From Ceratodon purpureus (lineage: Eukaryota > Streptophyta > Bryopsida > Pseudoditrichales > Ditrichaceae): a stretch of DNA of 64,000 bases. The notes beneath the pieces are model-generated. The model had not been told where the DNA came from. It was given only the letters and a program-made list of their open reading frames with translations, and did no database searches. Positions 3,455 through 50,252 of the stretch are shown here, piece after piece (position 1 is the first letter of the stretch; each line of letters begins with the position of its first letter). The position numbers were made by a program, and so were the translations under genes. The stretch covers positions 9,220,772-9,284,771 of the forward strand of contig CM026428.1 of the NCBI GenBank assembly GCA_014871385.1, written 5' to 3'.

Positions 3455-4327
3455 GTATAATTAGCCCATATCTATATCCCCTGATTCGCTTTGCTATTAC
3501 CATGAAAAAGCTACATCAATGTCAGTTCTGAGTCTCTATTTTCCTGTGGGGGGTCTCCAATGAATTTACTGCTTCTGTTGAGAGGAACTTTTGATCCAAA
3601 GCTGGTGCCGGAACCTATCAATTAAGTATCTGATAATTCCTTAAACATAAACCATTCAACATGGCTACGTGTTCTTCTACGGAAGCCTGCATTGAATCTA
3701 TTCAAAGCATCATATGTCGTCAGGATGTTGACCCAGAGAGCCTTCATAGTGTTGCTTATTACTACTAATCCCTCGCTTGAGTCTCCAGAGTTACCAGGAG
3801 CATTAGGGAACTGGGTCGAGTATTGAGACGCCGCCAAAAAATCCTTGAAACTCATTCACGCACTTGGTGCAGAGGCCATTTTAAGATGAATGTAACAGAC
3901 TGGTCTGGAGCAAATTATTCACCGTCTTCTACTCTGACAATTACGACTTAAATTGCAAATTTAAATGCTCTTTCCTTCCTCCAACTACGATATCTGTTCC
4001 AAGCATTGATATGGAAGAATGGAGAGGCAGCAAGTAAGGGAGAAGTTGTCAGCCGTGTGAGTTCAGGAATCATTCTACCCAGTTCATAAATTTACTCTAG
4101 AGCTTCGAAATACAACCCCTGATTCTTCATAACTTAAAAGCATTGTTTTGCTACCAATGACCCACTATCGTACACAATGATTCAGTGCATATGTCTATCC
4201 ACTTACGCATTTTTTTATTGACGACCTTGCCAAGACTTTCATAGTATATTTTATGCATAAATATTTGGAAGATCATATATTAAGTATATCATATGTTAAT
4301 AGCAAGTTCGTTCACACTTGAACAAAT
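3455..4327. other. Intergenic region after the OTU gene
   Basis: Probably holds the 3' end and UTR of the OTU gene. Frames here are short and match no family I recognise. No RNA gene or repeat was seen. Confidence 0.5.
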
Positions 4328-11590
<7,263 letters not shown>

Positions 11591-17156: not shown

Positions 17157-19494
17157 ATGGAGTACTCTCTCCTAGTCTTTTACTACTTAAAAAAACCTGT
17201 CTTAATGTAGGTGAAGAAACCTCTCTTGATGTAAGCATTATTTTATCGCTTAGTGGAGGTAAAGAAAATTCTTCTCTTCTTGACTTGTAGGCACAAACTA
17301 AAGAACTGAGCACAATGATTGTTACATAACTAATTGTTTTCTTAAGCTATATCAGCAACTTTGCAATCTCTAATTGATCAAGAAGGAACTAATTAGCAAC
17401 ATTTTGTTGTTTTAAGTTTAGATGGGCTTCTACGCAACATTCAACGTTGTCGTCTTCAACACTCAAAAGTTTTATACTTGGAGCTGGGACTTGGATGTGT
17501 TCTGGCTGACCTTGTCGTATTTCTCTGCCCTCGGCTGAATAACTTATTTTTCTCTCTATTGGACTAGTATGGAAAGAAGTTGAGCAAATGTTCTAATGAA
17601 GTGTGTTCTAAAAAATTATTTGATATCTCTATGAATTTTATATAGAGAACATTACACTTTCATATCGCACTTGCCAGATGAAGTGTTAGATGATCAAGGT
17701 TGCCAAGGATCGGGAGTGGATTTCAAATTGTTGGAAGAAGCAATCTGGTAGTCAGTAGAGTATATATCAGGAAGATTGACTTCGCGCCTACACTTGTGAC
17801 TTCACAATATTGTTCTAATAGTGATAAATCAATAATAGGACTTCTGAACCTATTCTATTGTTGCTTATATATTCTCCTCAACATATTTCAATAGTAGAGA
17901 AACCTAAGTTCCTAACAAAAAATCTTGTTCCATGACTCCTAAAGTGGAGGCAAAAGTAAAATACAATTGTCAAGATTTCTTTAAAAAAACCCAATAGGTA
18001 TTTCAAACATCTCAGCATTGTCCATCATTGCAATTTTTTTTGTTAAAATCCTTACGTCCGAATTTCTGCAAGCTTGTCAAAAGATTTAATGACCATATTC
18101 GTTATTTTGAGACATCTTTTAAATTTTGAGACTATTTGCCTATAATTTAAGCAACTATTTTGAGTGATTCATACATTTAAAAAAAATTCTATTCATAGAT
18201 TATCCTTGAATCAAGGATAACCTTCCCATATATAGTCAAAAAGACAATTACAAATATAGAATCAATCAAAGAGATCAATGAAAAATCTAAATTCAAGCAT
18301 TAAATTGAAACTACAAAAAGACTCAATTTAACAAATGGTTTTTTTAATATAGGTTTTTATTTACCAGAGTTGTTGTTTATGATAAGGAGTGTATGTGGAC
18401 GACGATATGAGTGGGGTATTTGTAACAAGTGCAACCAAGAATAAAATCAATTCTAATCTTTTATGTTACATGGATTTGTGAGGATTGCGTATTGTTTTCT
18501 ATAGTGATTGTCATGCAAGTGAAGAACAAGTGAAGAACGTGTGAAGATGAAGGAAAATTAAAAATTAGCGTATGGAAATCTAGCACCCGATACCAAATCT
18601 TGTGTGTGCGGAAATGATATGAGTGACATTGATGATGATGCATTCTCTCCATTTGTAGGCGCCATTCAAATCGTTTAAGGAAGGTGCAAACTCTCAAAGT
18701 ACAAGCTTGTCCCGAAATGGCAGAAAGGGGAGGTAAACCATTGTTTTTTGTGAACCGTATGCTTGTCAAAATAATTTGCTATTAGAGAAATTGGCCTGGT
18801 ATAGACTAACAATGTTATCTTAATGTGAACGCAACAATTTGGGATTCGTACAAAAATTGAGACATGGAGGTCGGATAAGGCATTGTACAAGAGAAAGAAT
18901 AGTGTAGAGGAAAGATGGTAAGGATTTATGGCAATGAGTTTGTACATCACATTTGTCGCATGTTTATGTATTATAGCAAAATAATATCCAAATATAGATT
19001 TTGTGCATGATTGGTACATTAAATGTTTTGTATTTGATACATTAACAAAATCCACCAAAAAAGTATTAGAGAATATAATAGAACAATATAAAACTTAGAT
19101 TATGCAATTCAACTTCCTTGGCTCTTTCATATGGTATTTTTGTACATTTTGTATTTCATTGTTAAATTTGAGATTTTGTTTTAAAGAAAACACTCTACAA
19201 ACATCTTCAATTCCAACTTATATAATAAGTTTATCACCTACTTCAATCTATTCTCAAAGAATTCTTCATCTTGCACATATGTATTAAATTACCACAATTA
19301 TGTAATGTATGCCATCCCATGGGTCACCTGCAGGATTAGAGGCACCCCGATTTTTCATTGTCTACTCCTACAAATATACCGGAAAAATCCCAAATTTTCG
19401 AATATGCCATTTCCAGAAAACACCAATCAACACTTTCCTTACAGTTTGTGCTATGCTCAAAGAAGCTTGCAACAATTTTGACGGACCTCCGAAA
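17157..19494. other. AT-rich intergenic DNA
   Basis: No supported gene. The only structure noted is a 21-bp perfect small hairpin at 18200-18220 (10-bp arms, one-base loop). Confidence 0.5.
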
Positions 19495-19623
19495 ACACTG
19501 AGAGACTCATGAATAGATAACTCTTTAAACTCTGGAAGTTGAGTCTGTCGTTGAATAAATACGGATTGATCAATGATACCTGGCCAGGAGCTTGCAAATG
19601 GATCCATGAAGGGTCACAGCTTG

Positions 19624-26573
<6,950 letters not shown>

Positions 26574-27767
26574 GGCGCCTTTCGGAAAGCTCGTGTGGTG
26601 TGGATTAACAAGTACGGAAGTTGCACATAGCGCCTCGATTGAACATCTCCGACTAACTCCAATTCTCCATGACCAGTATATACTCGGTCCTAGCCAAAAC
26701 AGTACTCCAGGTGGGTCTCACGAATCTCTACTCCCAGGTGTTTTTTTTTTCTTCGAACGCTTTTGCTCGAGGCAAGGTCACGTACCTATGGCGCTAAACT
26801 AAATAATTCTATCACCGGGTTCTATCATGTCACTCCGGATAGACCTCGCATGCGATGTAATTATTCACTAGACTGTTCCTGCGCCACCTGGCCAACTTGA
26901 TCAAGCGACCCTTCTTTCATGAAATCAAGAGTTAATACTCACTTCTGATGAAGCTATCGATCTAGAAGAGCATCAACTTCTCGATTTTTTATGAAACAAA
27001 ATAAGAACCTGTAGTTCTTTGAATTTATTTTGAAGAATTTACAATCTTAGAATGCTTCTCAATCTCCAACAACATGCCAACGGACTGAGCAGTCTGACAG
27101 TCTGTACACCACTGTAGCAGACTCGCCATGACTTGAATGAAAACCGAGTCAGGACTGACCCAGATCAGACTTACCGACACTGCAATACTTTTCTGGTTTT
27201 GATGTTTTAAAATCAGTACCGATTCAACGTCTCAACAACTATAGAGAATGGAAAAGATCTCCCAAAAAGATTTCTCTCTTTTGTTAAAGAATTATCAAAA
27301 CGAAAAACAATGTGCTACTAGCAATGAACCCGGCTCGGAAAGCGAAACTCGCACAACGAGATAAAATGGTAGAATAGAATATGCATGCCGGTGAGTAGAT
27401 GCAGCGTCGTTGGCAGCACTGATGTTGAATGAAGTGGTCCCGACTCCCAAGCTCTGCCTGGCATTCGTCACTGGCCGACCAGTGCCATTTCCACAAGTAC
27501 TGTACCAATGTGTGTGTACTTATCACCATAAGTTCCGTACATAAATATATGTTGGGCATTAATGCCGAGTACCAACTGAGAGCGCGTCTGCTTCACTAAA
27601 TTTTAGTTTGGAAAAGATCCAAAATATAGAATTTTGACTAATCTCATTTCGGAAATTGGGCATATACTCCAAGGTCACCAACAAGACAAAGTATATAAAC
27701 GAGTAACAAGGCTCCTTTCAAATATAAAAGCATGTTTCATGTCTTCGACGAAGAGTAACATCTGGAA

Positions 27768-35372: not shown

Positions 35373-38010
35373 ATTATTTTATTTTCCAGAAATCCACTCG
35401 AATGTCAATGTTCCTGGGTTTGGAGGGTTCCGGTGAGAGAGGAGTTCAGCAGATAACAGTAGTTCTTGACTTGGTCATTCATCTGCATCACACAATCAAA
35501 CAGTCATCGTCTTGAATAGATGACCTGTTCTGATGCCAAGCAGGAGATCATTCCATAGGAACCGTCATTCCATCTCTTAAATATGCTAGACTAAATTCTG
35601 GCCCAAAAACCTATTATTTATTTGATCGCATTTTACAATGTCAATGTCCAACACTTGCAATACGTTCACAGATAGGGGTTAATCAACTAAAGCTTCAGAG
35701 AGCACGGCAAATAGCTCTCAGCCAACATCACAAGAAAGACCAATCAAAGCTATTGAGGAATATTGACCGAAGTAAAACATTCTGAGTCCAGAAGCTCTCA
35801 ACTACCACGATAAACAACACGGTGATTGAGGTAAGAACAGAGCCTACCTTTCCTTTTACCATAGCAAACTTCGAGACTCCTTGTTTGGTAATCCGTGAGA
35901 ACCTTCCCATCTTCACCTCAGAAACGAACCAATCTAGGTATACACATGGAAGTGAAGAAGGCAGTGCTAAAAAGCCCTAGCTCTCAATCTATTACTCCCT
36001 TGCATCCATTGAACTCGATTCTGGCTACAGCCAAATCCACACAGTAACGCACTCCTGAACTCAGCCGGATCAACGCTCCACTCTCCACTCCACAAATCCA
36101 ACTTGGCGACACTCACTGCAGCAAAGCTTCCTACCTGTATAAGCCAAAGTATCACACAAGCATTACAACACAGATATAAGGTAATTTGGAAAAAACCCAA
36201 CTGTCAGTTCACCGACTACCGACTCCCTGGAACAAAATGGCATGAAACTTCTCTAGCTCAAGATTAACCAAACACCTTCACACTCACAACCTTCCCAAAA
36301 TGCAGTCAACCACATCCATAGCCAACCTCATTCAACCCAACCTAAACTCATCTCATCTCTACCCCAACCTCAAAACTAATCACAAAACTCAAAAAAAAAA
36401 CTCAGAAATCCTCCCTATCAACAACCACCTCCCGAAACCACCTCATCTCACTTCCACCAATCCACCCACCCAATTACCTACAGACACTCAAACCTCAACA
36501 AAAACCTCACTCCTCCACCCTAACCACAAACCTCAACACTCACAACCCATGCCTCAAACCCCACCCCCTCCCAAAAACCAAAACTCCTTCCAAAATCCAT
36601 CACATCACCCAAGCTCAAAATCCTTCACCCAAACCTCACAAACACACCAAAACACACACCTTGAAGCCTCAGAAAAGTTCGATCTTCACCTCTAGGCAAC
36701 CTCACAGCACACCATCATCTTCTTCCCCAGATGAGCCCAAATTGCAGTCAAGCGTGAGGAGACTTTGGTGGCCCAAAGCACAGACAGTACCAACGCGTTG
36801 GGATGATTGCCAGACGACTCCCCCACTCTGACGATGATGCAACTCTTCGGTTCCAGTGCTTCCCTGAAAGCAAAACCGGGACAGCTTCTCCTGCTAAAAC
36901 TGCAACCTTGCAAAAAAAATTGCAAAAAAAATTGCCAAAAAAATTGCCAAAAATTTGCAAATAAGCTGCAATTAAATTGAAGAAAAATGTGGAAAATGTT
37001 TGTGAAAATGTTTGGAAAAATCTCTGTGCATGTTTTGTAAGCCAATGAAGCTGCCGGTTGACAGTCGAATACTAGGTGTGCCCCACTGCAGCTACTGATA
37101 CCCAAACCCCGTCACCAGTCAAGGTATCTAAAGTTCTGTAGATGTTAAGGAGCTAAATGTTCAATTTCTGAAGATAGTAGTGGGTTTACGTGAGTGATAG
37201 TTTTAGGTGTGGTGACCTGGACTCTTCTCTTTGCTGACCCATTTCGATTCTGGGAGTTTTTTCTGTCTTCTTTGGGTCTCTTTTTCTAAGTTGTTTGTTT
37301 TTTTCTTTCTTCGACGCCTTGGTCTTTCGGTTTGGTGGGGTGGTGGACCCATAGGCGTTACTAGACTTGGTGGTGGTTTTATTTAGGGGCTGTGTTGATT
37401 TGAGTGTGGGATATTCTGGTATACGTAGATAGTGATGGATTTGGGTGGGCATGGTGTCTATTTGGGGTGTGCTGGTTAGTTTATGTTATCTGGTTTCTAC
37501 CGTTTTTTGGTCTCGCTTTCTTTGACTCGGGTCTTCGGTTGTCGTGGTGCTGTCGTCACTGGTGTGCACGTAAGTCCGCTACTGTTGCCATAACTTGATA
37601 TTCTTTGCTGTCTTCCTAGATTTTAGGGCCTTTTTTGGTAAGATACTAGATTTTGGTTGGTTCGTTGTGATGGTTTTGAGTGGGTGGTTTTTTCTTCAGG
37701 GAAACAGGGAGTGAAACAAGATCATACACAAAGTACCAAATAATCTTGGTAAAAAGAGGGTAATACCTGTATGACTTGATGGAATTACCAGTGTCATTGA
37801 TGGTCAAATCAAGCAATTTTTGAAAGCAAGCGATGACCTCCAACCCTCCAAAATCAAGTTGGTAGTGTGGCATTTTCATTTGGCTAATTTACAACTAGTT
37901 TCTGGATCTCTCCAATCATTGGAGCGAAACGGCCACGCATTCTTGTTGTCAGTTATGAGTGCAAGAGTTGAATGGGAGCTAAGGTGTTCCAACCATACTT
38001 TGTTATTGAT
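35373..38010. other. Intergenic region with strand-biased low-complexity stretches
   Basis: Upstream of the LysM kinase. From about 36240 to 36665 the + strand is almost free of G (C/A-rich), while about 37190-37700 is G/T-rich on the same strand. Short frames inside look like by-products of this composition. No gene is supported. Confidence 0.5.
36905..36960. repeat. Short A-rich tandem repeat
   Basis: Four imperfect units of a run of A followed by TTGC or TTGCC, about 12-14 bp each. Simple-sequence repeat without evident function. Confidence 0.7.
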
Positions 38011-38214
38011 TAACCCCTAAAGTTGAAAGGCCTCAAAACTGCCAAAAACCCTCAAAACTACACTCTTTCCATAGAAGGTGTAAGTTTTTAAGTTTTGATG
38101 AATTTAAGGGAGAAATAACCGTAGGATCTAGTACCTTACTTGTACATGTGTATGTACTCCAAATATTAGATTCAAAATCCTTATCGCTTGTGAGATCACA
38201 ACGTTCTAAGTTGA
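38011..38214. mobile_element. Left part of an older TIR element (E3), interrupted by the Ty3-like insertion
   Basis: Begins with TAACCCCTAA, the same terminal motif as the two elements at 48090-49026 and 49325-50252, and aligns with the first ~200 bp of the former (for example CCGTAGGATCTAGTACC against CCGTAAGATCTGGTAC). Its sequence stops at 38214 and resumes at 47091, so the retroelement lies inside it. The right terminus was not found. Confidence 0.6.
38200..38214. repeat. 15-bp direct repeat flanking the Ty3-like insertion (left copy)
   Basis: AACGTTCTAAGTTGA occurs here and again, identically, at 47091-47105, exactly at the two junctions between the older element and the inserted DNA. 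It behaves as a target-site duplication, but is longer than the 4-6 bp usual for LTR-element integrases. Confidence 0.7.
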
Positions 38215-38367
38215 CTCTTCGTTGCACCCTCCCCCTTCTAGAGGAGATGTTGCCCTCAACATCTTTGTTCCCCTATTCTTCTTTTAGGGACGAGACTTAT
38301 AAAGCTTGTTAGCAACGCAAAACTTATCAATCAAGTCACTACGATGTTCACAAAACTTCCTTTGTAC

Positions 38368-41300
38368 TCATTGGGCTTCGACAGCGGAATACCCTTCGTA
38401 GACCACTTTAAACTCTTCCCCATATCGTTTGTTGATCCTCTGACCAATGATATCGGAAATTTGGCCTACTGTCTTGTCCCACACTTCGAAATCACTTGGT
38501 GGCTTTGCTTTCTTCAACCTTGGGTCTTGGGCTCGATAAGGCTTCAAGAGGGAGACATGGAAAATGGGATGGAGTTTATATTTTAGCGGGATGTCGAGGT
38601 GATACACATCCGGTCGCACCTCTCTCTTTATCTCGAAGGGACAAATCCATTTTGGCCACCACTTCTTCGATAACTCCTTGGGGACGTCAATGTTCTTCAC
38701 CGAGAGCAAGACGTTTGTTCCCACCAAGTACTTAACATCCCTCCTATCCTTGTTCGCCATTTTCTTGTAACGTGTTTGGGCCAGCTCTAGAGCGGTCCTC
38801 ACATTCGTTATTGTCACTTCTCTTCTCGAGATGAACTCTTGTGCGTTTACATCAGATTGTCCCGAAATCTCAAGATCATTTTCGCCACCATGAGGAACCG
38901 AAGGTCCTGTCTCATCTTGGGGTAATGAAGACTCTTCTTCGGTCCCAATGTCTAATGCTAACTCGACGAGAGTAAGTGGCTCGAATCCTCGCGCTACAAA
39001 GAAGGGTGAGTGTTTGGTCGCGGAATGCTTGTGACTATTGTAGCAAAACTCTGCTAACGCAAGCCATTCCGTCCAGTCTCTTTGATCCGCAGCAATATAG
39101 TTGCGCAAATACATATTCAACACTTGATTCACCCTCTCCGTTTGTCCATCGGTTTCAGGATGGAATGCGGTACTCATCTTGAGTTTGGTTTTCAACCTCG
39201 TCCTGAGATGTTGCCAAAATGCGGAAGTGAACTTAGTGTCACGATCGCTAACAATGTCTCGAGGCATGCCATTCGCAACCACCCACCGATCCAAGAATAA
39301 CTTGGCCACATCTTCAACGCTATAATGCTTTAGCGATGGGAGAAACATGGCTAACTTGCTGAACCGATCCACCACTACGAAAATCGCATCATATCCCTCC
39401 GCTGTCATTGGTAAATCCAACATGAAGTCCATTGAAATGCTCTCGAAGGGGCGTTGTCGAATCGGTAAAGGTCTCAACAAGCCTGCCTTCTTCTGATTTT
39501 GTTGCCTACTCTTTTGGCAAGTGTCACATTTCTTGATGAACACCTCTACATCATGGCGCATTTCCGGCCAATAAAACCTCCTTGACAGTTCGGTGTTGGT
39601 GGACAATTCTCCTCGATGTCCACCCAAAGGCATGGCATGATGTTCATCCATGATTCTAAGTCTAAGTTCCCCCTTTGGAACATAAATCCTAGTTTGCTTA
39701 TACTTAAGCAAGCCCTTTTCTAACCTCATTGTCTTGGAGTAGCCACCCCTTTTCTTATCTCTAAAATCAGCAAGGAGTTCTTGCGCCTTCTCATCACTAG
39801 CATACCCTTGGCGGATCATCTCTTGTAAAGATGTCTCGTCTTCGCCTTGGTCACGAGGCAAAGCATAGGCCATCGCGAGAGTCATATACTCCTCTTTTCT
39901 ACTTAGCGCATCCGGCACTATGTTGTCTTTGCCCGGCTTGTGAATGATCTCAACGTTACTAAGCGTGATGGTGTCGTACCATCTCAATTGCTTAGGCGTT
40001 ACCTTGGCTTGAGTTTCCAAGTATTTCAAGGAGATGTTATCGGTGTAGACCTTGGTTGTGAACCTTCCAAGGTAATGTGCCCATTTCTTAAGGCAATACA
40101 CGATTGCAAACAAGTCCTTCTCGTGAGTCGGCCACTGCCGCTCTACTTCCATAAGCTTCCTGCTTTCAAAAGCCACCGGCTTCTTGTCTTGCATCAAGAC
40201 TCCTCCAATTGCGAAGTCACTCGCATCCGTATGGACCTCAAAAGGTTTTTCATACTCTGGAAACTTGAGCACCGGTGCAGTCGACATCTTATGTTTGATC
40301 TCATCGAAGGACTTTTGAACCTTGTCATGCCATTGTATTTGCTTTCGCTCACCGTTGAGCAATTCTGTTAGTGGCGCCGCAATCTTGGAGAAGTCCTTCA
40401 CGGACGATCTGTAGTAGCTTGCCAAGCCATGGAATCCCCTAACTCCCCTTTGAGTTTGTGGTTGGGCCCAAGAGGTGATGGCCTTGACCTTTTCAGGGTC
40501 CGGTCTTCTTCCATCATGACTCAAAACGTGGCCCACGAATCCCATGTCCTCTTGGCCAAACTCACTCTTTTCCAAATTCGCAAACAACTTATTCTCTCTA
40601 AGTTTCTGCAAGACAATCTCTAAGTGCCTTTTGTGTTCTTCTAGAGTTTTGGAAAAGACCAAGATATCATCAATATAGATGATCACGAAATCATCTAACT
40701 CGCCACGGAATATTGAATCCATCATTGTCATAAACGTTGATAGCGCATTACACAATCCAAAAGGCATGACTACGAACTCAAAGGAACCATACCTTGTTCG
40801 CATCGCGGTTTTCTCAATATCGGCCTCCGCTATCCTAATTTGATAGTAGCCAGACTTCAAATCGATCCGGCTAAAGTACTTGACTCCTGCCAATCTATCA
40901 AGCAAATTGTCAATTCGCGGCAAGGGATAGTTGTTCTTGACGGTGATCTTGTTCAAAGCTCTATAGTCAATGCACATCCCTAACTTGCCGTCTTTCTTTC
41001 CCACAAACAAGACGGGAGCTCCATATGGCGACTTACTTTGCCTTATGTACCCTTTGGCTAGTAGCTCCGTCACTTGGATTTTGAGTTCTTCCAACTCTTT
41101 CTGATTGAGCCGGTAAGCCGCTTTGCAAGGCGGTTGTTCACCGGGTTTCACCTCAATCCTATGATCAACGGCACGATGAGGCGGGAGTTCATTTGGCACG
41201 TCTTTCGTCAACACATCTTTGTATTTTTCAATAACTTTCATTATGTTTCGAGGCACCTTAGGCCCATTTACACCCGGTTGCTTAGTGTCATCAACATAAG

Positions 41301-42270
41301 CTTCCTTCAAAACGAACACAAAATGAACGTCTCCTAACTCTTCAGGAGTACGTACCAAACAAATTGCCTTGCCCTTCAAAACAGGGAGAGTTGTATGTGG
41401 GAACACTACTTGTCCTCTAGGGGTAAGTCCCACAACTCTCACTTCGGGTCGGCGCCTAAGTTCTACACTATAAGTGGCTAAGAATGTCGTTCCTAAAATT
41501 GCTTCTACGGCTCTTAAGTCGCAGATGGTGAAGTCTTCTACGAGATTGTCTTCACCGCACTTGAACTCCATCTTCGGCGCCACCGTCGTTGTCGAACTCC
41601 TCCCATTCGCAAACTCCACCTTGATCTCCTTCGCTACTTCCTTGGTCTTCACGCCAAGTCGCTTCGAAAGGTCTTTACTCAAGAAGGAGTGAGTTGCGCC
41701 TGTGTCCAACAACATAGACACATTAATACCGTTAACAACACAATCAAGATAGACTAACTTAGAAGTATGAGTAATGACAACGTCAACTCTTGCCTCAAAC
41801 CCTCCTTCGCTTAAGTCTTTTTGACTCAAGGCACTAACCTTCTTGGGTTCGGTGCAAGTAGAGAGGACATGTCCTTTCTTGCCACAGTTGTGACAAGTGA
41901 TTTTCTTATGCCACTCCTCCACCTTCCCAGGTTTATTTTGCTTGCCCTTGTATTTGGACGAGGATGCTTTGTTGTCCTTAAGCTTGTCTTCCTTCGAAAA
42001 GTCGCCCTTGAACCTTTTAGAGGGGTAGTTCGACTTGAACTTCTTTCTCTTATGATCGCCCTTTTGGCTTTCCCCTCCCGCCTTCACTTCGTCTCGAGTG
42101 TTGGCGGCCTCGTAACTACCACCAAGTCGATCGGCTTCCTTAAGCATTTCTGCTACGTTTCTAGGAAGATCCGTTACTCCTGGAAAGAAAGCCTCTCGAT
42201 CCTTTTCTGACAAACCCGCAAAGTAAATCACCTTCTTGGCATAATCATCAAGGTCAGGAGCTAGCTGCAT
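38368..42270 (-). CDS. Ty3/Gypsy gag-pol frame (zinc knuckle, protease, RT, RNase H, integrase)
   Basis: A 1,300-codon frame that looks whole. Visible domains by residue: CCHC zinc knuckle from about 126 (CHNCGKKGHVLSTC), aspartic protease at about 187 (LLDTGATHSFLS), reverse transcriptase with YIDDILVF at about 532, RNase H at about 680 (TDASDFAIGG), integrase zinc region and core at about 875-1050, and a C-terminal segment with HPIFHVSLLKPY typical of chromovirus-like and other plant Ty3 integrases. It belongs to the surrounding element, not to the host gene set. The family assignment is secure from domain order (RT before integrase). Confidence 0.93.
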   Translation of the reverse strand: MQLAPDLDDYAKKVIYFAGLSEKDREAFFPGVTDLPRNVAEMLKEADRLGGSYEAANTRDEVKAGGESQKGDHKRKKFKSNYPSKRFKGDFSKEDKLKDNKASSSKYKGKQNKPGKVEEWHKKITCHNCGKKGHVLSTCTEPKKVSALSQKDLSEGGFEARVDVVITHTSKLVYLDCVVNGINVSMLLDTGATHSFLSKDLSKRLGVKTKEVAKEIKVEFANGRSSTTTVAPKMEFKCGEDNLVEDFTICDLRAVEAILGTTFLATYSVELRRRPEVRVVGLTPRGQVVFPHTTLPVLKGKAICLVRTPEELGDVHFVFVLKEAYVDDTKQPGVNGPKVPRNIMKVIEKYKDVLTKDVPNELPPHRAVDHRIEVKPGEQPPCKAAYRLNQKELEELKIQVTELLAKGYIRQSKSPYGAPVLFVGKKDGKLGMCIDYRALNKITVKNNYPLPRIDNLLDRLAGVKYFSRIDLKSGYYQIRIAEADIEKTAMRTRYGSFEFVVMPFGLCNALSTFMTMMDSIFRGELDDFVIIYIDDILVFSKTLEEHKRHLEIVLQKLRENKLFANLEKSEFGQEDMGFVGHVLSHDGRRPDPEKVKAITSWAQPQTQRGVRGFHGLASYYRSSVKDFSKIAAPLTELLNGERKQIQWHDKVQKSFDEIKHKMSTAPVLKFPEYEKPFEVHTDASDFAIGGVLMQDKKPVAFESRKLMEVERQWPTHEKDLFAIVYCLKKWAHYLGRFTTKVYTDNISLKYLETQAKVTPKQLRWYDTITLSNVEIIHKPGKDNIVPDALSRKEEYMTLAMAYALPRDQGEDETSLQEMIRQGYASDEKAQELLADFRDKKRGGYSKTMRLEKGLLKYKQTRIYVPKGELRLRIMDEHHAMPLGGHRGELSTNTELSRRFYWPEMRHDVEVFIKKCDTCQKSRQQNQKKAGLLRPLPIRQRPFESISMDFMLDLPMTAEGYDAIFVVVDRFSKLAMFLPSLKHYSVEDVAKLFLDRWVVANGMPRDIVSDRDTKFTSAFWQHLRTRLKTKLKMSTAFHPETDGQTERVNQVLNMYLRNYIAADQRDWTEWLALAEFCYNSHKHSATKHSPFFVARGFEPLTLVELALDIGTEEESSLPQDETGPSVPHGGENDLEISGQSDVNAQEFISRREVTITNVRTALELAQTRYKKMANKDRRDVKYLVGTNVLLSVKNIDVPKELSKKWWPKWICPFEIKREVRPDVYHLDIPLKYKLHPIFHVSLLKPYRAQDPRLKKAKPPSDFEVWDKTVGQISDIIGQRINKRYGEEFKVVYEGYSAVEAQ

Positions 42271-42510
42271 CTTGGTAATGTAGTCTGCTGTGTACCGACT
42301 TAAGGTTCGCGTTCCTTATCTAAGTCTGGTGAACGCCACCGCATCTCTAAAATCAGAGAACTTGGTGGTGAATCGCTCGATCATTTGAGCTTATATTTCA
42401 TCCCAAGAGTAACTGAAAGGCCACTTCTTTGTCGAAAGAGGGTTCGAGTTCTTCTTCTTGGTCGTCCACCAAACTCTTGCGGAACCTCGAAGGTTGATAG
42501 CTACAATCGC

Positions 42511-45500
42511 TATTTGCTCCTTGTCGGGAGTGTTGTGCATATCAAAATGGTCTTCCATTCGCCCAACCACTCCCAAATTTTGGTCCCGCTTTGGTTAGTG
42601 AAGGCCGCGGGCAACTTTAATCCTTGAGCTGCTTTTCCCACGCCCTTATTCACTTCTCCGACGCGCGCTCTTTCCTCAAGTCTAGCCACATTCACGCGAA
42701 GATCATTCACGATTTCAATCAAGATTCTTCGGCTTGGCAGTCTTTCGGCTTCCTCATCGGATAAAGGAGAGCGTCCCCTTCTTGCTCTTCTTCGAGCGGG
42801 GCGATCTTCCGTCTCCTCGTCATCATCCCTTCGTCCTCCTCCTCGTCCTGCTCCACTAGCATCGGCATTGGTTGAGTCTCAATCACCACCCCCACTTCCA
42901 CTTGGAGGATCACCGGCAACGATCACTACTCTCACAGCCTCGCCTTGGTTGTTAGCTTGGACATTGGAGGGGCCAGCCGTGCCTTCGCCATCAGCAGGCG
43001 GTTTTTCCTTAGGGACTTGTTCTTTAGGAGCACTCTTTGCTCCCTTCCCTTTGGCCGCCCTGCCACCTCCAGCGTGTTTTGGATCTTGCTCCGTTTCCTC
43101 CCCTGAATCGTGAGCCGAAGTTGCGTCGTCGACCCCCTTCTTGAGAGCCTTCGCTTTACTTGTTGCCGGCTCCTTGGTAGCTTGTTTTCCTCTCGCCTTC
43201 TCTTTGGCTGCGCCACCTTCCGGTGCCGTTGTGGCCATTTTCTTAGAAGGTCGTCCAACCTTCTTAGTCTTGAAGGCTGTTGGGTTCATCGCTGCCAATT
43301 CGACGGGGTCAATTTCTCCTTGAATCGCAGCCGCGGCGTCACCCGCTTCCACTTCCACCGGATCGTCTTGGTGAGCTGCTTGAGCCTCAACTTCATCTAG
43401 TCGAGCCATCTTGCTTGTGCTCTTTTACTGAGGCTCTCGCAGCTATCCACCCTTAAGGTACTCTGATAACCACGTGTCACACTCCAAACTTAGTCGCTCG
43501 TTCCTCATGAGTCCAAGTCCGTCGCGGTGCTCCTATTTACCAACAAAACAACAAGTCCCACGAGTTAGTTTACTCCGGAGTGCGCTCCAACGAACCCCGA
43601 CGTTCAACTCCCTCACGGCACTTACTCACTTAGCCAGACTCTCTAAGACTAACTAAGTCTAACCCTCGCGACCCGCCCAAGAGACAACTCCCGGGTGCGA
43701 GTGAGGCGCCTTAAGCCTTCGCTAGCCAAGACCCTCGAGAGGATCCCCATCCATATGGCGGATTTACAAGGCCATGGATTTGGCTTTAAGGGATCTTTTA
43801 CACACTCATAGGTACTTTTCCAGAATTCCGTTCCTTCTTCACCACTTGGACATGGGAGCGAGCCATGCGTCGCGCCAGGAGCGACTCAAAGGAGCGCAAG
43901 CGCCACCAACTTACTTGGCGAGCAGTAAGTTGCCTATTCGCTCCTTGTCGGGAGTGTTGTGCATATCAAAATGGTCTTCCATTCGCCTCAACCACTCCCG
44001 AATTTTGGTCCCGCTTTGGTTAGTGAAGGCCGCGGGCAACTTCAATCCTTGAGCAGCCTTTCCCACGCCTCTATTCACTTCCCCGACGCGCGCTCTTTCC
44101 TCAAGTCTAGCCACATTCACGCGAAGATCATTCACGATTTCAATCAAGATTCTTCGGCTTGGCAGTCTTTCGGCTTCCTCATCGGATAAAGGAGAGCGTC
44201 CCCTTCTTGCTCTTCTTCGAGCGGGGCGATCTTCCGTCTCCTCGTCATCATCCCTTCGTCCTCCTCCTCGTCCTGCTCCACTAGCATCGGCATTGGTTGA
44301 GTCTCAATCACCACCCCCACTTCCACTTGGAGGATCACCGGCAACGATCACTACTCTCACAGCCTCGCCTTGGTTGTTAGCTTGGACATTGGAGGGGCCA
44401 GCCGTGCCTTCGCCATCAGCAGGCGGTTTTTCCTTAGGGACTTGTTCTTTAGGAGCACTCTTTGCTCCCTTCCCTTTGGCCGCCCTGCCACCTCCAGCGT
44501 GTTTTGGATCTTGCTCCGTTTCCTCCCCTGAATCGTGAGCCGAAGTTGCGTCGTCGACCCCCTTCTTGAGAGCCTTCGCTTTACTTGTTGCCGGCTCCTT
44601 GGTAGCTTGTTTTCCTCTCGCCTTCTCTTTGGCTGCGCCACCTTCCGGTGCCGTTGTGGCCATTTTCTTAGAAGGTCGTCCAACCTTCTTAGTCTTGAAG
44701 GCTGTTGGGTTCATCGCTGCCAATTCGACGGGGTCAATTTCTCCTTGAATCGCAGCCGCGGCGTCACCCGCTTCCACTTCCACCGGATCGTCTTGGTGAG
44801 CTGCTTGAGCCTCAACTTCATCTAGTCGAGCCATCTTGCTTGTGCTCTTTTACTGAGGCTCTCGCAGCTATCCACCCTTAAGGTACTCTGATAACCACGT
44901 GTCACACTCCAAACTTAGTCGCTCGTTCCTCATGAGTCCAAGTCCGTCGCGGTGCTCCTATTTACCAACAAAACAACAAGTCCCACGAGTTAGTTTACTC
45001 CGGAGTGCGCTCCAACGAACCCCGACGTTCAACTCCCTCACGGCACTTACTCACTTAGCCAGACTCTCTAAGACTAACTAAGTCTAACCCTCGCGACCCG
45101 CCCAAGAGACAACTCCCGGGTGCGAGTGAGGCGCCTTAAGCCTTCGCTAGCCAAGACCCTCGAGAGGATCCCCATCCATATGGCGGATTTACAAGGCCAT
45201 GGATTTGGCTTTAAGGGATCTTTTACACACTCATAGGTACTTTTCCAGAATTCCGTTCCTTCTTCACCACTTGGACATGGGAGCGAGCCATGCGTCGCGC
45301 CAGGAGCGACTCAAAGGAGCGCAAGCGCCACCAACTTACTTGGCGAGCAGTAAGTTGCCTATTCGCTCCTTGTCGGGAGTGTTGTGCATATCAAAATGGT
45401 CTTCCATTCGCCTCAACCACTCCCGAATTTTGGTCCCGCTTTGGTTAGTGAAGGCCGCGGGCAACTTCAATCCTTGAGCAGCCTTTCCCACGCCTCTATT

Positions 45501-47040
45501 CACTTCCCCGACGCGCGCTCTTTCCTCAAGTCTAGCCACATTCACGCGAAGATCATTCACGATTTCAATCAAGATTCTTCGGCTTGGCAGTCTTTCGGCT
45601 TCCTCATCGGATAAAGGAGAGCGTCCCCTTCTTGCTCTTCTTCGAGCGGGGCGATCTTCCGTCTCCTCGTCATCATCCCTTCGTCCTCCTCCTCGTCCTG
45701 CTCCACTAGCATCGGCATTGGTTGAGTCTCAATCACCACCCCCACTTCCACTTGGAGGATCACCGGCAACGATCACTACTCTCACAGCCTCGCCTTGGTT
45801 GTTAGCTTGGACATTGGAGGGGCCAGCCGTGCCTTCGCCATCAGCAGGCGGTTTTTCCTTAGGGACTTGTTCTTTAGGAGCACTCTTTGCTCCCTTCCCT
45901 TTGGCCGCCCTGCCACCTCCAGCGTGTTTTGGATCTTGCTCCGTTTCCTCCCCTGAATCGTGAGCCGAAGTTGCGTCGTCGACCCCCTTCTTGAGAGCCT
46001 TCGCTTTACTTGTTGCCGGCTCCTTGGTAGCTTGTTTTCCTCTCGCCTTCTCTTTGGCTGCGCCACCTTCCGGTGCCGTTGTGGCCATTTTCTTAGAAGG
46101 TCGTCCAACCTTCTTAGTCTTGAAGGCTGTTGGGTTCATCGCTGCCAATTCGACGGGGTCAATTTCTCCTTGAATCGCAGCCGCGGCGTCACCCGCTTCC
46201 ACTTCCACCGGATCGTCTTGGTGAGCTGCTTGAGCCTCAACTTCATCTAGTCGAGCCATCTTGCTTGTGCTCTTTTACTGAGGCTCTCGCAGCTATCCAC
46301 CCTTAAGGTACTCTGATAACCACGTGTCACACTCCAAACTTAGTCGCTCGTTCCTCATGAGTCCAAGTCCGTCGCGGTGCTCCTATTTACCAACAAAACA
46401 ACAAGTCCCACGAGTTAGTTTACTCCGGAGTGCGCTCCAACGAACCCCGACGTTCAACTCCCTCACGGCACTTACTCACTTAGCCAGACTCTCTAAGACT
46501 AACTAAGTCTAACCCTCGCGACCCGCCCAAGAGACAACTCCCGGGTGCGAGTGAGGCGCCTTAAGCCTTCGCTAGCCAAGACCCTCGAGAGGATCCCCAT
46601 CCATATGGCGGATTTACAAGGCCATGGATTTGGCTTTAAGGGATCTTTTACACACTCATAGGTACTTTTCCAGAATTCCGTTCCTTCTTCACCACTTGGA
46701 CATGGGAGCGAGCCATGCGTCGCGCCAGGAGCGACTCAAAGGAGCGCAAGCGCCACCAACTTACTTGGCGAGCAGTAAGTTGCCTATTCGCTCCTTGTCG
46801 GGAGTGTTGTGCATATCAAAATGGTCTTCCATTCGCCTCAACCACTCCCGAATTTTGGTCCCGCTTTGGTTAGTGAAGGCCGCGGGCAACTTCAATCCTT
46901 GAGCAGCCTTTCCCACGCCTCTATTCACTTCCCCGACGCGCGCTCTTTCCTCAAGTCTAGCCACATTCACGCGAAGATCATTCACGATTTCAATCAAGGT
47001 TCTTCGGCTTGGCAGTCTTTCGGCTTCCTCATCGGATAAA
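42511..47040 (-). repeat. Tandem array of 1,425-bp gag/leader units (three copies and a partial fourth)
   Basis: Unit starts at 42511, 43935, 45360 and 46785; the fourth copy stops at 47040. Units 2 and 3 appear identical over their length and unit 1 differs slightly near its start. Each full unit includes a 176-codon minus-strand frame (42879-43409, 44304-44834, 45729-46259) starting MARLDEVEAQAAHQDD, rich in Lys, Ala, Glu and Pro, with an AT-hook-like KVGRPSKK. It also includes about 0.5 kb of leader with the primer-binding-site-like stretch. The frame is probably an N-terminal gag portion. Part of the retroelement fossil at 38215-47090. Confidence 0.9.
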
Positions 47041-47090
47041 GGGTTTAGGGTTTAGGGTTTAAGGGTTTAGGGTTTTAGGTTTATGTTTAG
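47041..47090 (+). repeat. Interstitial telomere-like repeat (TTTAGGG type)
   Basis: About five imperfect units of the plant telomere repeat (GGGTTTA), degenerating at the right. It begins directly where the partial fourth gag unit stops and ends at the 15-bp direct repeat. It is an internal tract, since unrelated sequence continues for 17 kb. Confidence 0.9.
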
Positions 47091-47105
47091 AACGTTCTAA
47101 GTTGA
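47091..47105. repeat. 15-bp direct repeat flanking the Ty3-like insertion (right copy)
   Basis: Identical to 38200-38214. Beyond it the sequence (AAGAAAAGTTTTTTT) continues the alignment with element E1, as expected if the older element was split here. Confidence 0.7.
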
Positions 47106-48089
47106 AAGAAAAGTTTTTTTCCCTTAATGCAAAATAGATTTCAAGTGTTTTGTGAGCCAAGAAAACCAATTTTGAAAGCAAACTAGATGTGAGGCTCTTC
47201 AAATTCCTGTTCCTAGATGAGTTAGGAATATGTCCATGCACTTTTTTCCTTCATACGTCCTAAAAAACCTAAAGAAATGCTTGATTTTTCACATGGAGGT
47301 ATGCTGAAATTCAAATGCAAAGGCCAGTCTATGATAGTAAAAAAGGCATACAGAGAAATATTGGATTGGAAATCCGAGCGGTTAGATCATGTCTTCAAAT
47401 TGTATTTACAAGTAGAAAAAACAAAACTTGAAAAAAAGTAAAATTCCGATTTTTGGTGAATTTTTGAATTTTTTACGATCTAATTAATTTAGGGCTGATT
47501 TTGAGCATGTACTGCAGTTTTGGGCAGTATTCAGCATGCCTCAATAGTGTTATCAAATTTTGATTGCGGATATCTTCTAAATTATGAAGAATTTTGAAGC
47601 ATGAATGGTCTTGTTAGAAAGATATGAAAATTTCTTATGTTGTGCCAAAATTACAGCCACATCCGTTAAAATTAGACTTATAGGGAGCCTAACCGGACCC
47701 TTAATCATACTAAAACTGTTGAATTGATGTTTTAGGGATTAAGTTTTTGACGTTATATACTTTTTTTAAAACTATAGATTTTAAAGCACCAAAATTACTC
47801 TTTTTAGTAAATTTTGATGGAGGAGTTTCCGTAAATTTTAGATATCCAAATTTATTAGATTGATGATTGTATATATTTACATATGTTTGAACCAAAATAT
47901 TGAAACATGTAAGGAGTAATTATTTTATTTTTTGATCTATTGATAGTAACACCATTTATACTAATAACTTACTTAAGATTTGATAATTGATTTGAACTAT
48001 ATCAGTTGAGATTTCAACTCTTAGTTGGAAGTTTTTTACTAAGTGTAGGCTTCACTGGTAGCTATGTTTTAAAAAAGTTCAACTCCATT
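47106..48089. other. AT-rich DNA, probably the right part of element E3
   Basis: The first ~100 bp resemble the interior of E1 after its position 48290. Similarity becomes weak further on and I could not place a right terminus. No gene seen. Confidence 0.45.
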
Positions 48090-49026
48090 TTAACCCCTAA
48101 GTGCCCAAGCATGTTTTGGGTCTCGAAACCTCCAAAACATTGATTTTTGACCACCTTGTAGAAACGACAATTTGAACCAAACAAATTTTCTTTTTTTAGA
48201 CATCCAGCCGTAAGATCTGGTACTAAACCTCCTTTAGAAGTACTGTTAAAATTTTCAACCGTTGAATGTTTACCATCTTAGAGATTATAATATTCAAAGT
48301 TGCAACAAAAGTTTTTTTGGGCATTGGTTGAATGACATAGTAAAAATAGTGCAAAGGAGGAGTTGAAGATTGTTACCCCAAACATTTTGCTCATATTTTT
48401 TTCCATGTAGGTAATCAAGTTCAGTACCTCCATGGAAAATTTGAAAGACTCATTCCTTTTTTTGGCTCTCATAAAAATTATTTTCTAGAAGGAGGTCTAA
48501 AAACGTTGATATAGTAAAACATGCATGACGTCACGTATATTTGGTTTTAGAAAAATCTGAACTGTGGTTAGGTGCCTTTATAAGTTTTTTATTTTTAGGG
48601 AAAATTATTTTTGAAAAACTTCAAAATCTCAAATTTTGACGAATTTTGAAAGAATTAATTCAAAAATTACTGAAAATATTGAAGCTTGTCTTTGTAATTT
48701 TTAGAGGCTGCCCTTGTAAAATTGGTATATTTTTTGACTTGGGTCTCTTTGGAATTTGAGTGGTGGTTTGGTTATGAACATTTTTCAAGAATTTTTTTTC
48801 AAAAAAAGCCTAATTTTAAGCTGCCCGTTTTGGACTTGAAACCTAAAATTTCTAGATAAAGGTCTTAAAATTGGAATTTGGCTTTGCAAATTCTACCACA
48901 TACATTTTGCAGTACAAGGAGCATCCAGTAAAAATATTAGGCAAAAATATTAATTTTAACCCCTTTATCTAGACTGACCAAATCAGCAAAAAGCCGTTTT
49001 GGCTTTCCTGGGCACTTAGGGGTTAA
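48090..49026. mobile_element. Non-autonomous TIR element E1 (937 bp)
   Basis: The ends are perfect 18-bp inverted repeats (TTAACCCCTAAGTGCCCA at 48090-48107 and its reverse complement at 49009-49026). TA at both edges suggests a TA target site with the repeat starting ACCCC. The interior is AT-rich without a transposase. It is related, in inverted orientation, to the element at 49325-50252. Confidence 0.8.
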
Positions 49027-49324
49027 GTGAATACCAACTATAGCCTACATAAGAATAAATAAATGAATGAAAGAATAATCAAAATCAAGTAATGCACTTC
49101 TAAAACTTTAAAAGCATTCAATCATTCAATTGCATTTACCAAATATTAGGTAATTATATGCTGTTGACTTTTCATTTGTGTTTAATCGAATAATTTCAAA
49201 TAAAAAACAACGCAAATTATGATACTTTGATATAATTTGGTTATTATAACATGATTGGAATATTTAAACTAACGTTGGATTAATTTTTTTATTTTAAAGT
49301 TATAAATTGAATATTATAAATATC

Positions 49325-50252
49325 TTAACCCCTAAACGACCACGGCCACCAAAATGGCTTTTTGCTATTTCGGGCAGCTTAGATGAAGGGGTTTAAATTA
49401 ATATTTTTGCCTAAGATTTTTACAGGAGACTCATTATACTGCAAAGTGTATGTGGTAAAATTTGCAAAGCCAAATTCCAATTTTAATACCTTCATCTAGA
49501 AATTTTAGGTTTAAAGTTTCGGGCGAGCACTTTGAAATTAGGTTTTTTTAAGATTTTTTTTCTTGAAACATGTTCATAATCAAAGCACTACTCAAATTCC
49601 AAAGAGACCTCCATGAAAAAGTTTACCATTTTTACATGGGCGGCCTCCAAAAATTACGATAACAAGCTTCAAAATTTTTGAATAAATTCTTTCAAAATTT
49701 ACCAAAATTTGAGATTTTGGAATTTTTCAAAAATAATTTCTTTCAAAAATCACAAACCCATAAAGGGACCTTACCACCGTTTAGATTTTTCCAAAACCAA
49801 ATATATGTAACGTCATGCATGTTTTACTATATCGTTGTTTTCAGATCTGCTTATAGAAAATGATTTTTATGAAGGTATAAAAAGATGAATGAGTCTCTCA
49901 AATTTTTCATGGAGGTACCCAACTTGATTAGCTACATGGAAAAAAATATTACCATGATGTTTGATGTAAAAATCTTCAACTCTTCCTTTGCACCATGAAG
50001 GCAATGCCTCTTGAGCAAGGCCTAAAAAAACTTTTGAACAAACTTTGGATGTTATGATCATGCAAATGATAAACATCCAACGGTTAATTTTTTGGAAGGT
50101 AACTTGAATTAGGCTTATGTAGAGGATCTTACGGTTGAAAGTTTTAAATAAATAAAAAAAATTGGTACATACTCCCGGGAGTGCATAGAGGTAGAAAATC
50201 GCAGTTATGAGGTTTTAGAGCTCCAAAAACACCATGGATTTTTAGGGGTTAA
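49325..50252. mobile_element. Non-autonomous TIR element E2 (928 bp), inverted relative of E1
   Basis: Ends in TTAACCCCTAAA and its complement. Read on the minus strand it aligns with E1 along most of its length: the left part here (Leu-free, AT-rich, containing AAATTTGCAAAGCCAAATTC) matches the right part of E1, and the right part (GGATCTTACGGTTGAAA) matches the left part of E1. No coding capacity. Confidence 0.8.

Follow-up and report, generated by a model that had tools for sequence, protein, structure and literature searches.

We describe an insert of 8,876 bp (8.9 kb) in a 64,000-nucleotide stretch of the Ceratodon purpureus genome (contig CM026428.1, positions 9,220,772 to 9,284,771); this whole stretch is called the window, and coordinates given without a locus name refer to it. 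The insert, which is composed of Ty3-type retrotransposon sequence, a tandem array of 1,425-bp units and a telomere-like tract, lies in a copy of the dispersed host repeat E3 and is flanked by a 15-bp direct repeat. The locus looks like a one-off repair scar and not like a new kind of mobile element: it is likely that a staggered break took up rearranged Ty3 DNA and that its overhangs of 15 nt were then filled in.

The insertion site

The direct repeat AACGTTCTAAGTTGA is found at 38200-38214 and 47091-47105, exactly at both junctions of the insert, as had been stated in the initial annotation of this DNA. About 2.6 pairs of identical 15-mers are expected by chance anywhere in 64 kb, and the pair alone is therefore not rare. 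E3 is a repeat of about 840 bp resembling a miniature inverted-repeat transposable element; its termini are TTAACCCCTAAAG and TTTAGGGATTAA, and the copy in question is made up of 38010-38214 and 47106-47743. In all five insert-free E3 copies that were read, the left flank passes directly into the right flank and the 15-mer is present only once (four exact copies, one with one mismatch); thus, the duplication was made by the insertion. As judged from insert-free copies, the site, which reads CAC|AACG, contained no telomeric repeats beforehand. A 34-base pattern representing the empty site gave 129 genome matches with at most three mismatches, and the reversed control gave none.

It had also been claimed that the flanks align across the gap with an element named E1. 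The alignment holds for other E3 copies, but the candidate for E1 at 48186-49027, coordinates which are our guess at the element meant, shares with E3 only a core of 38 bp (82% identity). The segment 4325-11554 was ruled out as E1, being unrelated to the flanks of the insert. Two further repeats of the window were seen on this occasion. The segments 48186-49027 and 49324-50157 form a pair of about 840 bp in opposite orientation, which is 79% identical and distantly related to E3 via a short shared core; the segments 4325-11554 and 19492-27459 constitute a direct duplication of 7-8 kb, whose two blocks are 93% and 84.5% identical.

Structure of the insert

The Ty3-derived fragments all lie on the minus strand, and the G-rich strand of the telomere-like tract is the plus strand. 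The order of the fragments, including the flanking parts of E3, is as follows (basis of assignment in brackets).

38010-38199, plus strand: left part of E3, starting with TTAACCCCTAAAG (comparison with other E3 copies)
38200-38214, plus strand: left copy of the 15-bp duplication, AACGTTCTAAGTTGA (single copy in empty sites)
38215-42658, minus strand: Ty3 arm, termed copy A, with the start of the 3' untranslated region (UTR), pol and part of gag (family comparison)
38368-42315, minus strand: stop-to-stop frame of 1315 codons with protease, reverse transcriptase, RNase H, integrase and a Tf2-1-like SH3 domain (domain matches)
42510-43933, minus strand: unit 1 of the array, 1,424 bp; deviates from units 2 and 3 at nine positions, all in 42515-42658 (unit alignment)
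43475-43734, minus strand: half long terminal repeat (LTR) of unit 1, 260 of 515 bp (comparison with the reference copy L039)
43730-43929, minus strand: 3' UTR block of unit 1, joined to the half LTR at the 5-bp microhomology GACCC
43934-45358, minus strand: unit 2, 1,425 bp; half LTR 44900-45159, 3' UTR block 45155-45354 (unit alignment)
45359-46783, minus strand: unit 3, 1,425 bp; half LTR 46325-46584, 3' UTR block 46580-46779 (unit alignment)
46784-47042, minus strand: partial unit 4, 259 bp of gag, ending on the plus strand with ...GGATAAAGG (unit alignment)
47040-47090, plus strand (G-rich strand): degenerate TTTAGGG-type tract of about 50 bp (joint found once in the genome)
47091-47105, plus strand: right copy of the 15-bp duplication (sequence match)
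47106-47743, plus strand: right part of E3 (comparison with other E3 copies)

The Ty3 arm and its family

Within the frame of the Ty3 arm, the integrase zinc-binding, reverse transcriptase and RNase H domains scored above their curated cut-offs, whereas the integrase core (rve, E value 7e-7) stayed below its own. The arm is 3'-truncated at 38215, inside the 3' UTR. A search with the left junction gave 286 candidates, of which 40 were scored; besides the window itself, the element was matched in 24 of these 40, and 18 of the 24 are located on contig C6 of the assembly. This contig is 110.5 Mb long, compared to 16-29 Mb for the other large contigs whose lengths appeared; it may be a giant chromosome rich in transposable elements or a pseudo-contig of unplaced sequence.

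All 19 family copies that reach the truncation point continue for at least 100 bp beyond it (L010, counted among them, and the reference L039 are one and the same locus), and in 14 of them the alignment runs as far as the outer boundary of the 3' LTR, which in L039 starts about 625 bp past this point. The purine tract at about 38225-38240 (minus strand), previously regarded as an end of the insert with no LTR beyond it, is consequently ruled out as a true terminus, and so is a family of LTR-less elements. Pairs of LTRs with a length of 499-518 bp and an identity of 98.6-99.8% were detected in six of twelve fetched family stretches; the remaining stretches are truncated or incomplete (L042, L044, L049, L050) or contain runs of N (L041, L045). 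Five of the six copies with LTR pairs are flanked by 5-bp target duplications (GGCTG, GGAAG, GCCGC, CTTGC, GTATG); the sixth, L046, sits in a GGGA run and its duplication is unreadable. Given the full LTRs and 5-bp duplications of its relatives, the family is ordinary and the copy in the window is the exception: its duplication comprises 15 bp versus the 5 bp typical of its own family, and it lacks two terminal LTRs. The designation as an LTR-less Ty3-type element has to be given up on the same grounds, the more so as three half LTRs are present, all of them internal.

The tandem array

The initial annotation did not describe the array, in which, starting at 42510, a unit of 1,425 bp is repeated head-to-tail 3.2 times. 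Compared to L039, a full unit consists of the 5' end of gag, a stretch which we take to be similar to a primer-binding site (PBS), 260 of the 515 bp of an LTR, and a 3' UTR block of 200 bp. Units 2 and 3 are identical across 1,425 bp, and the partial unit 4 shows one further change. Unit 1 deviates from units 2 and 3 at nine positions within its first 149 bp and at none in its last 1,275 bp (Fisher p 1.2e-9). Hence the sequence changes from a type A to a type B inside gag. As the nine differences are confined to the start of unit 1 and then cease, we infer two sources, copy A for the pol arm and a different copy, B, for the array, with the changeover located near 42,660.

Both inner joints of the array are specific for this locus: the joint of the 3' UTR block with gag and the joint of the LTR with the 3' UTR each gave three genome matches, all within the insert, and none in the control. 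According to these searches, no donor locus for the 1,425-bp unit exists elsewhere in the assembly. Bases common to both sides are GACCC at the LTR/3' UTR joint, a single A at the left joint of the insert, and AGG at the telomere joint; the other joints are without clear microhomology.

The telomere-like tract

As described earlier, the TTTAGGG-type tract immediately adjoins a partial gag sequence. It is fused to gag after ...GGATAAAGG, such that its first AGG coincides with the last three bases of gag, and it is followed by the right 15-mer. A search for the gag/telomere joint gave one exact match, none at one or two mismatches and 13 at three mismatches (reversed control: three). No second copy of the tract occurs in the genome within three mismatches over 36 bases, and the assembly contains no donor locus for the joint elsewhere. 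The G-rich strand lengthens the 3' end of the plus strand, which is the direction of addition by telomerase. For comparison, two overlapping loci near one end of contig C1 have TTTAGGG as the commonest unit (54 counts) and few variants.

Other interstitial telomeric arrays were sampled by screening 12 loci, six of which contain at least three clustered motifs (L052-L055, L057 and L058 were left out); compared to the 1,040 overlapping motif matches, six is a small number. In none of them does a repeat of at least 11 bp abut the array. In L066, a 17-bp repeat lies 11 bases off the array and its partner about 90 bases further. This small sample thus lends no support to TTTAGGG-tailed insertions with duplications as a general class, and the telomere feature of the insert hardly represents one. 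At positions 1330-1358 of L065 (contig C1), a short TTTAGGG array is situated between arms that resemble an inverted repeat.

A comparison with the ends of other copies had been suggested as a check: the inner joints and the exact telomere joint of the insert were found only here, and the relatives do have LTRs. The ends of the insert are arbitrary, as matching ends or joints were found at no other copy.

Proposed origin of the locus

Of the readings considered, the capture of a rearranged retroelement fragment at a break has the best support. The order of A, B and telomere can be read as a single track of polymerization on the plus strand. A double-strand break with a stagger of 15 nt would have opened inside E3, and the segments would have been laid down in 5'-to-3' direction, from left to right on the plus strand. 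The 3' end would have entered Ty3 copy A in its 3' UTR, traversed pol and reached gag, where, at about 42,660, it would have switched within homologous sequence onto template B, a putative rearranged circle of 1,425 bp carrying the 5' end of gag, the PBS-like stretch, the half LTR and the 3' UTR piece. After about 3.1 rounds on this template, ending at ...GGATAAAGG, telomerase, presumably rather than the joining of a captured telomere fragment, would have added the G-rich telomere strand directly onto the free 3' end. The end bearing the telomere would have been connected with the right-hand end of the break, and filling both overhangs would have yielded the flanking duplication. The insert may have been assembled before its capture or at the break itself; either order is conceivable. 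For the rolling-copy step within this scheme, we consider the chances about even. Capture at a staggered break with repair by telomerase or a telomere fragment, which was among the routes proposed initially, fits the tests that were run.

A second locus of this kind may be L042 (contig C3), a truncated family copy whose ends (2134-2150 and 5916-5925) carry the sequence CCTTAGAGCA as a direct repeat of 10 bp and which has, in front of its LTR, the 7-bp filler AACTTAG, which occurs in a nearby LTR as well; its sequence makes a second capture event possible. In L027 (contig C6, 1461-1470), a 3' UTR piece is joined in inverted orientation to pol with an overlap of 10 bp.

Several observations do not sit easily with break capture as outlined above. 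At the joint of the 3' UTR block with gag there are a few unexplained bases and no clear microhomology, and a donor circle for the 1,425-bp unit was not seen. The telomeric tract is imperfect (TTTAAGGG, TTTTAGG, TTTATG); a fresh product of telomerase would therefore have needed later decay or slippage. The missing duplications at the six other interstitial arrays belong here too, as does the finding that the other five of six boundary pairs of truncated copies share stretches of merely 4-6 bp. Finally, the array could have expanded by unequal exchange after the insertion.

This last point leads to a variant which is itself a form of break capture and which we regard as possible, though less likely than not: the original insert would have contained a captured telomere fragment and no more than one additional partial unit, and the identical units would have arisen later by unequal sister-chromatid exchange. 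A recent expansion, too, could give identical units 2 and 3 and a unit 1 that differs only in its first 149 bp. The first exchange would have had merely about 259 bp of shared homology at its disposal, though, and the crossover must presumably have been located after 42658 to leave units 2 and 3 without the variants of unit 1. More doubtful is a scenario in which a retroelement end, after rolling copying of a small circle, was capped by telomerase like a chromosome end and captured at a break thereafter.

Target-primed reverse transcription, the other route of entry that had been suggested, is disfavored and in our view unlikely. Here, the machinery of long interspersed nuclear elements (LINEs) would have inserted an antisense Ty3 transcript with a telomere-like tail and generated the 15-bp duplication. 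In formal terms, the duplication has a LINE-like length, and the presence of a tail of simple repeats on one side is LINE-like too; target duplications of the LINE type vary between about 7 and 20 bp, a range that includes 15 bp. LINE-type zf-RVT domains are also common in this genome, as all 150 candidates scored out of 616 exceeded the cut-off. The insert has no poly-A or A-rich tail, however, its target CAC|AACG is unlike the TT|AAAA type expected for this mode of entry, neither of its ends was found elsewhere in the genome, and the six interstitial arrays examined, with their lack of abutting duplications, offer no parallel.

It is very improbable that an abnormal reverse transcription produced a complex cDNA which was then inserted by integrase. 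Template switching would account for the GACCC joint and for the chimeric A/B structure, and a rearrangement by reverse transcriptase prior to capture is possible. Entry by integrase would be expected to give LTRs at the termini and target duplications of 5 bp, which is what five of the six copies with LTR pairs show, but the ends are in this case the interior of a 3' UTR and a telomeric tract, with a duplication of 15 bp. Equally improbable is an assembly artefact consisting of a false join and false tandem units: long identical units are indeed hard to assemble, but the outer ends carry a clean 15-bp duplication, and the inner joints are consistent with each other and found only at this locus.

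If capture at a staggered break is the correct explanation, a single locus records template switching between retroelement copies, copying over several laps, telomeric addition and the fill-in of overhangs, that is, steps which are usually studied separately. It would then also exemplify a way for the DNA of LTR retroelements to get into a plant genome while lacking integrase ends, and odd "LTR-less" copies may be repair products. Should the sequence of circle copying, telomerase capping and capture apply, this plant locus would have preserved an intermediate that ties together retroelement circles, break-induced copying and telomere healing.

Comparison with known systems

Tandem duplications in plants that are patch-mediated or due to staggered breaks were reportedly described by Vaughn and Bennetzen in 2014. 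Like the locus studied here, these cases reportedly show, in plant DNA, short direct duplications that stem from the fill-in of overhangs; unlike in those cases, a large foreign filler parts the two copies here. For mammalian cells, it is reported that the fill-in of complementary 3' overhangs gives short tandem duplications (PMC8355091, in the part available), and circles of LTR retroelements are presented as well established in plants in the accessible text of PMC12786077.

Insertions of telomeric repeats at breaks are known from mammals. According to the available sections of Nergadze et al. 2007 (PMC2246262), they often show a few matching bases at the break, and a target duplication is listed for 6 of 130 loci in rodents and for 4 of 25 in primates. 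The insert resembles these loci with respect to telomeric repeats at a presumed break, a few matching bases, a prior site free of repeats and the occasional target duplication. They differ in being mammalian and, as far as the sections go, in the nature of the added DNA, which is random or telomerase RNA sequence there and 8.8 kb of rearranged Ty3 DNA here. A literature search in a collection lacking most subscription journals, judged by titles, the beginnings of abstracts and selected passages, brought up no plant report of a joint retroelement and telomere capture with target duplication.

In mouse zygotes, truncated LTR retroelements were captured at induced breaks with microhomologies of 1-7 bp (PMC4516963). 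Such capture, like the telomeric insertions in mammals, speaks for our interpretation. These inserts, like the one in the window, are composed of LTR retroelement fragments and can be multi-fragment; theirs are truncated at both ends and joined at the said microhomologies. The excerpted results of that study list inserts mostly without target duplications and one with 4 bp, which is a further argument against our interpretation. The present case differs from them in being a natural plant locus, where tandem units and a telomeric tract occur together with a duplication of 15 bp. Complex LTR elements that arise by template switching, as treated in the accessible portion of Sabot and Schulman 2007 (PMC1950507), have in common with the insert that they are chimeric retroelement DNA from two copies; unlike the insert, they retain LTR ends and 5-bp duplications.

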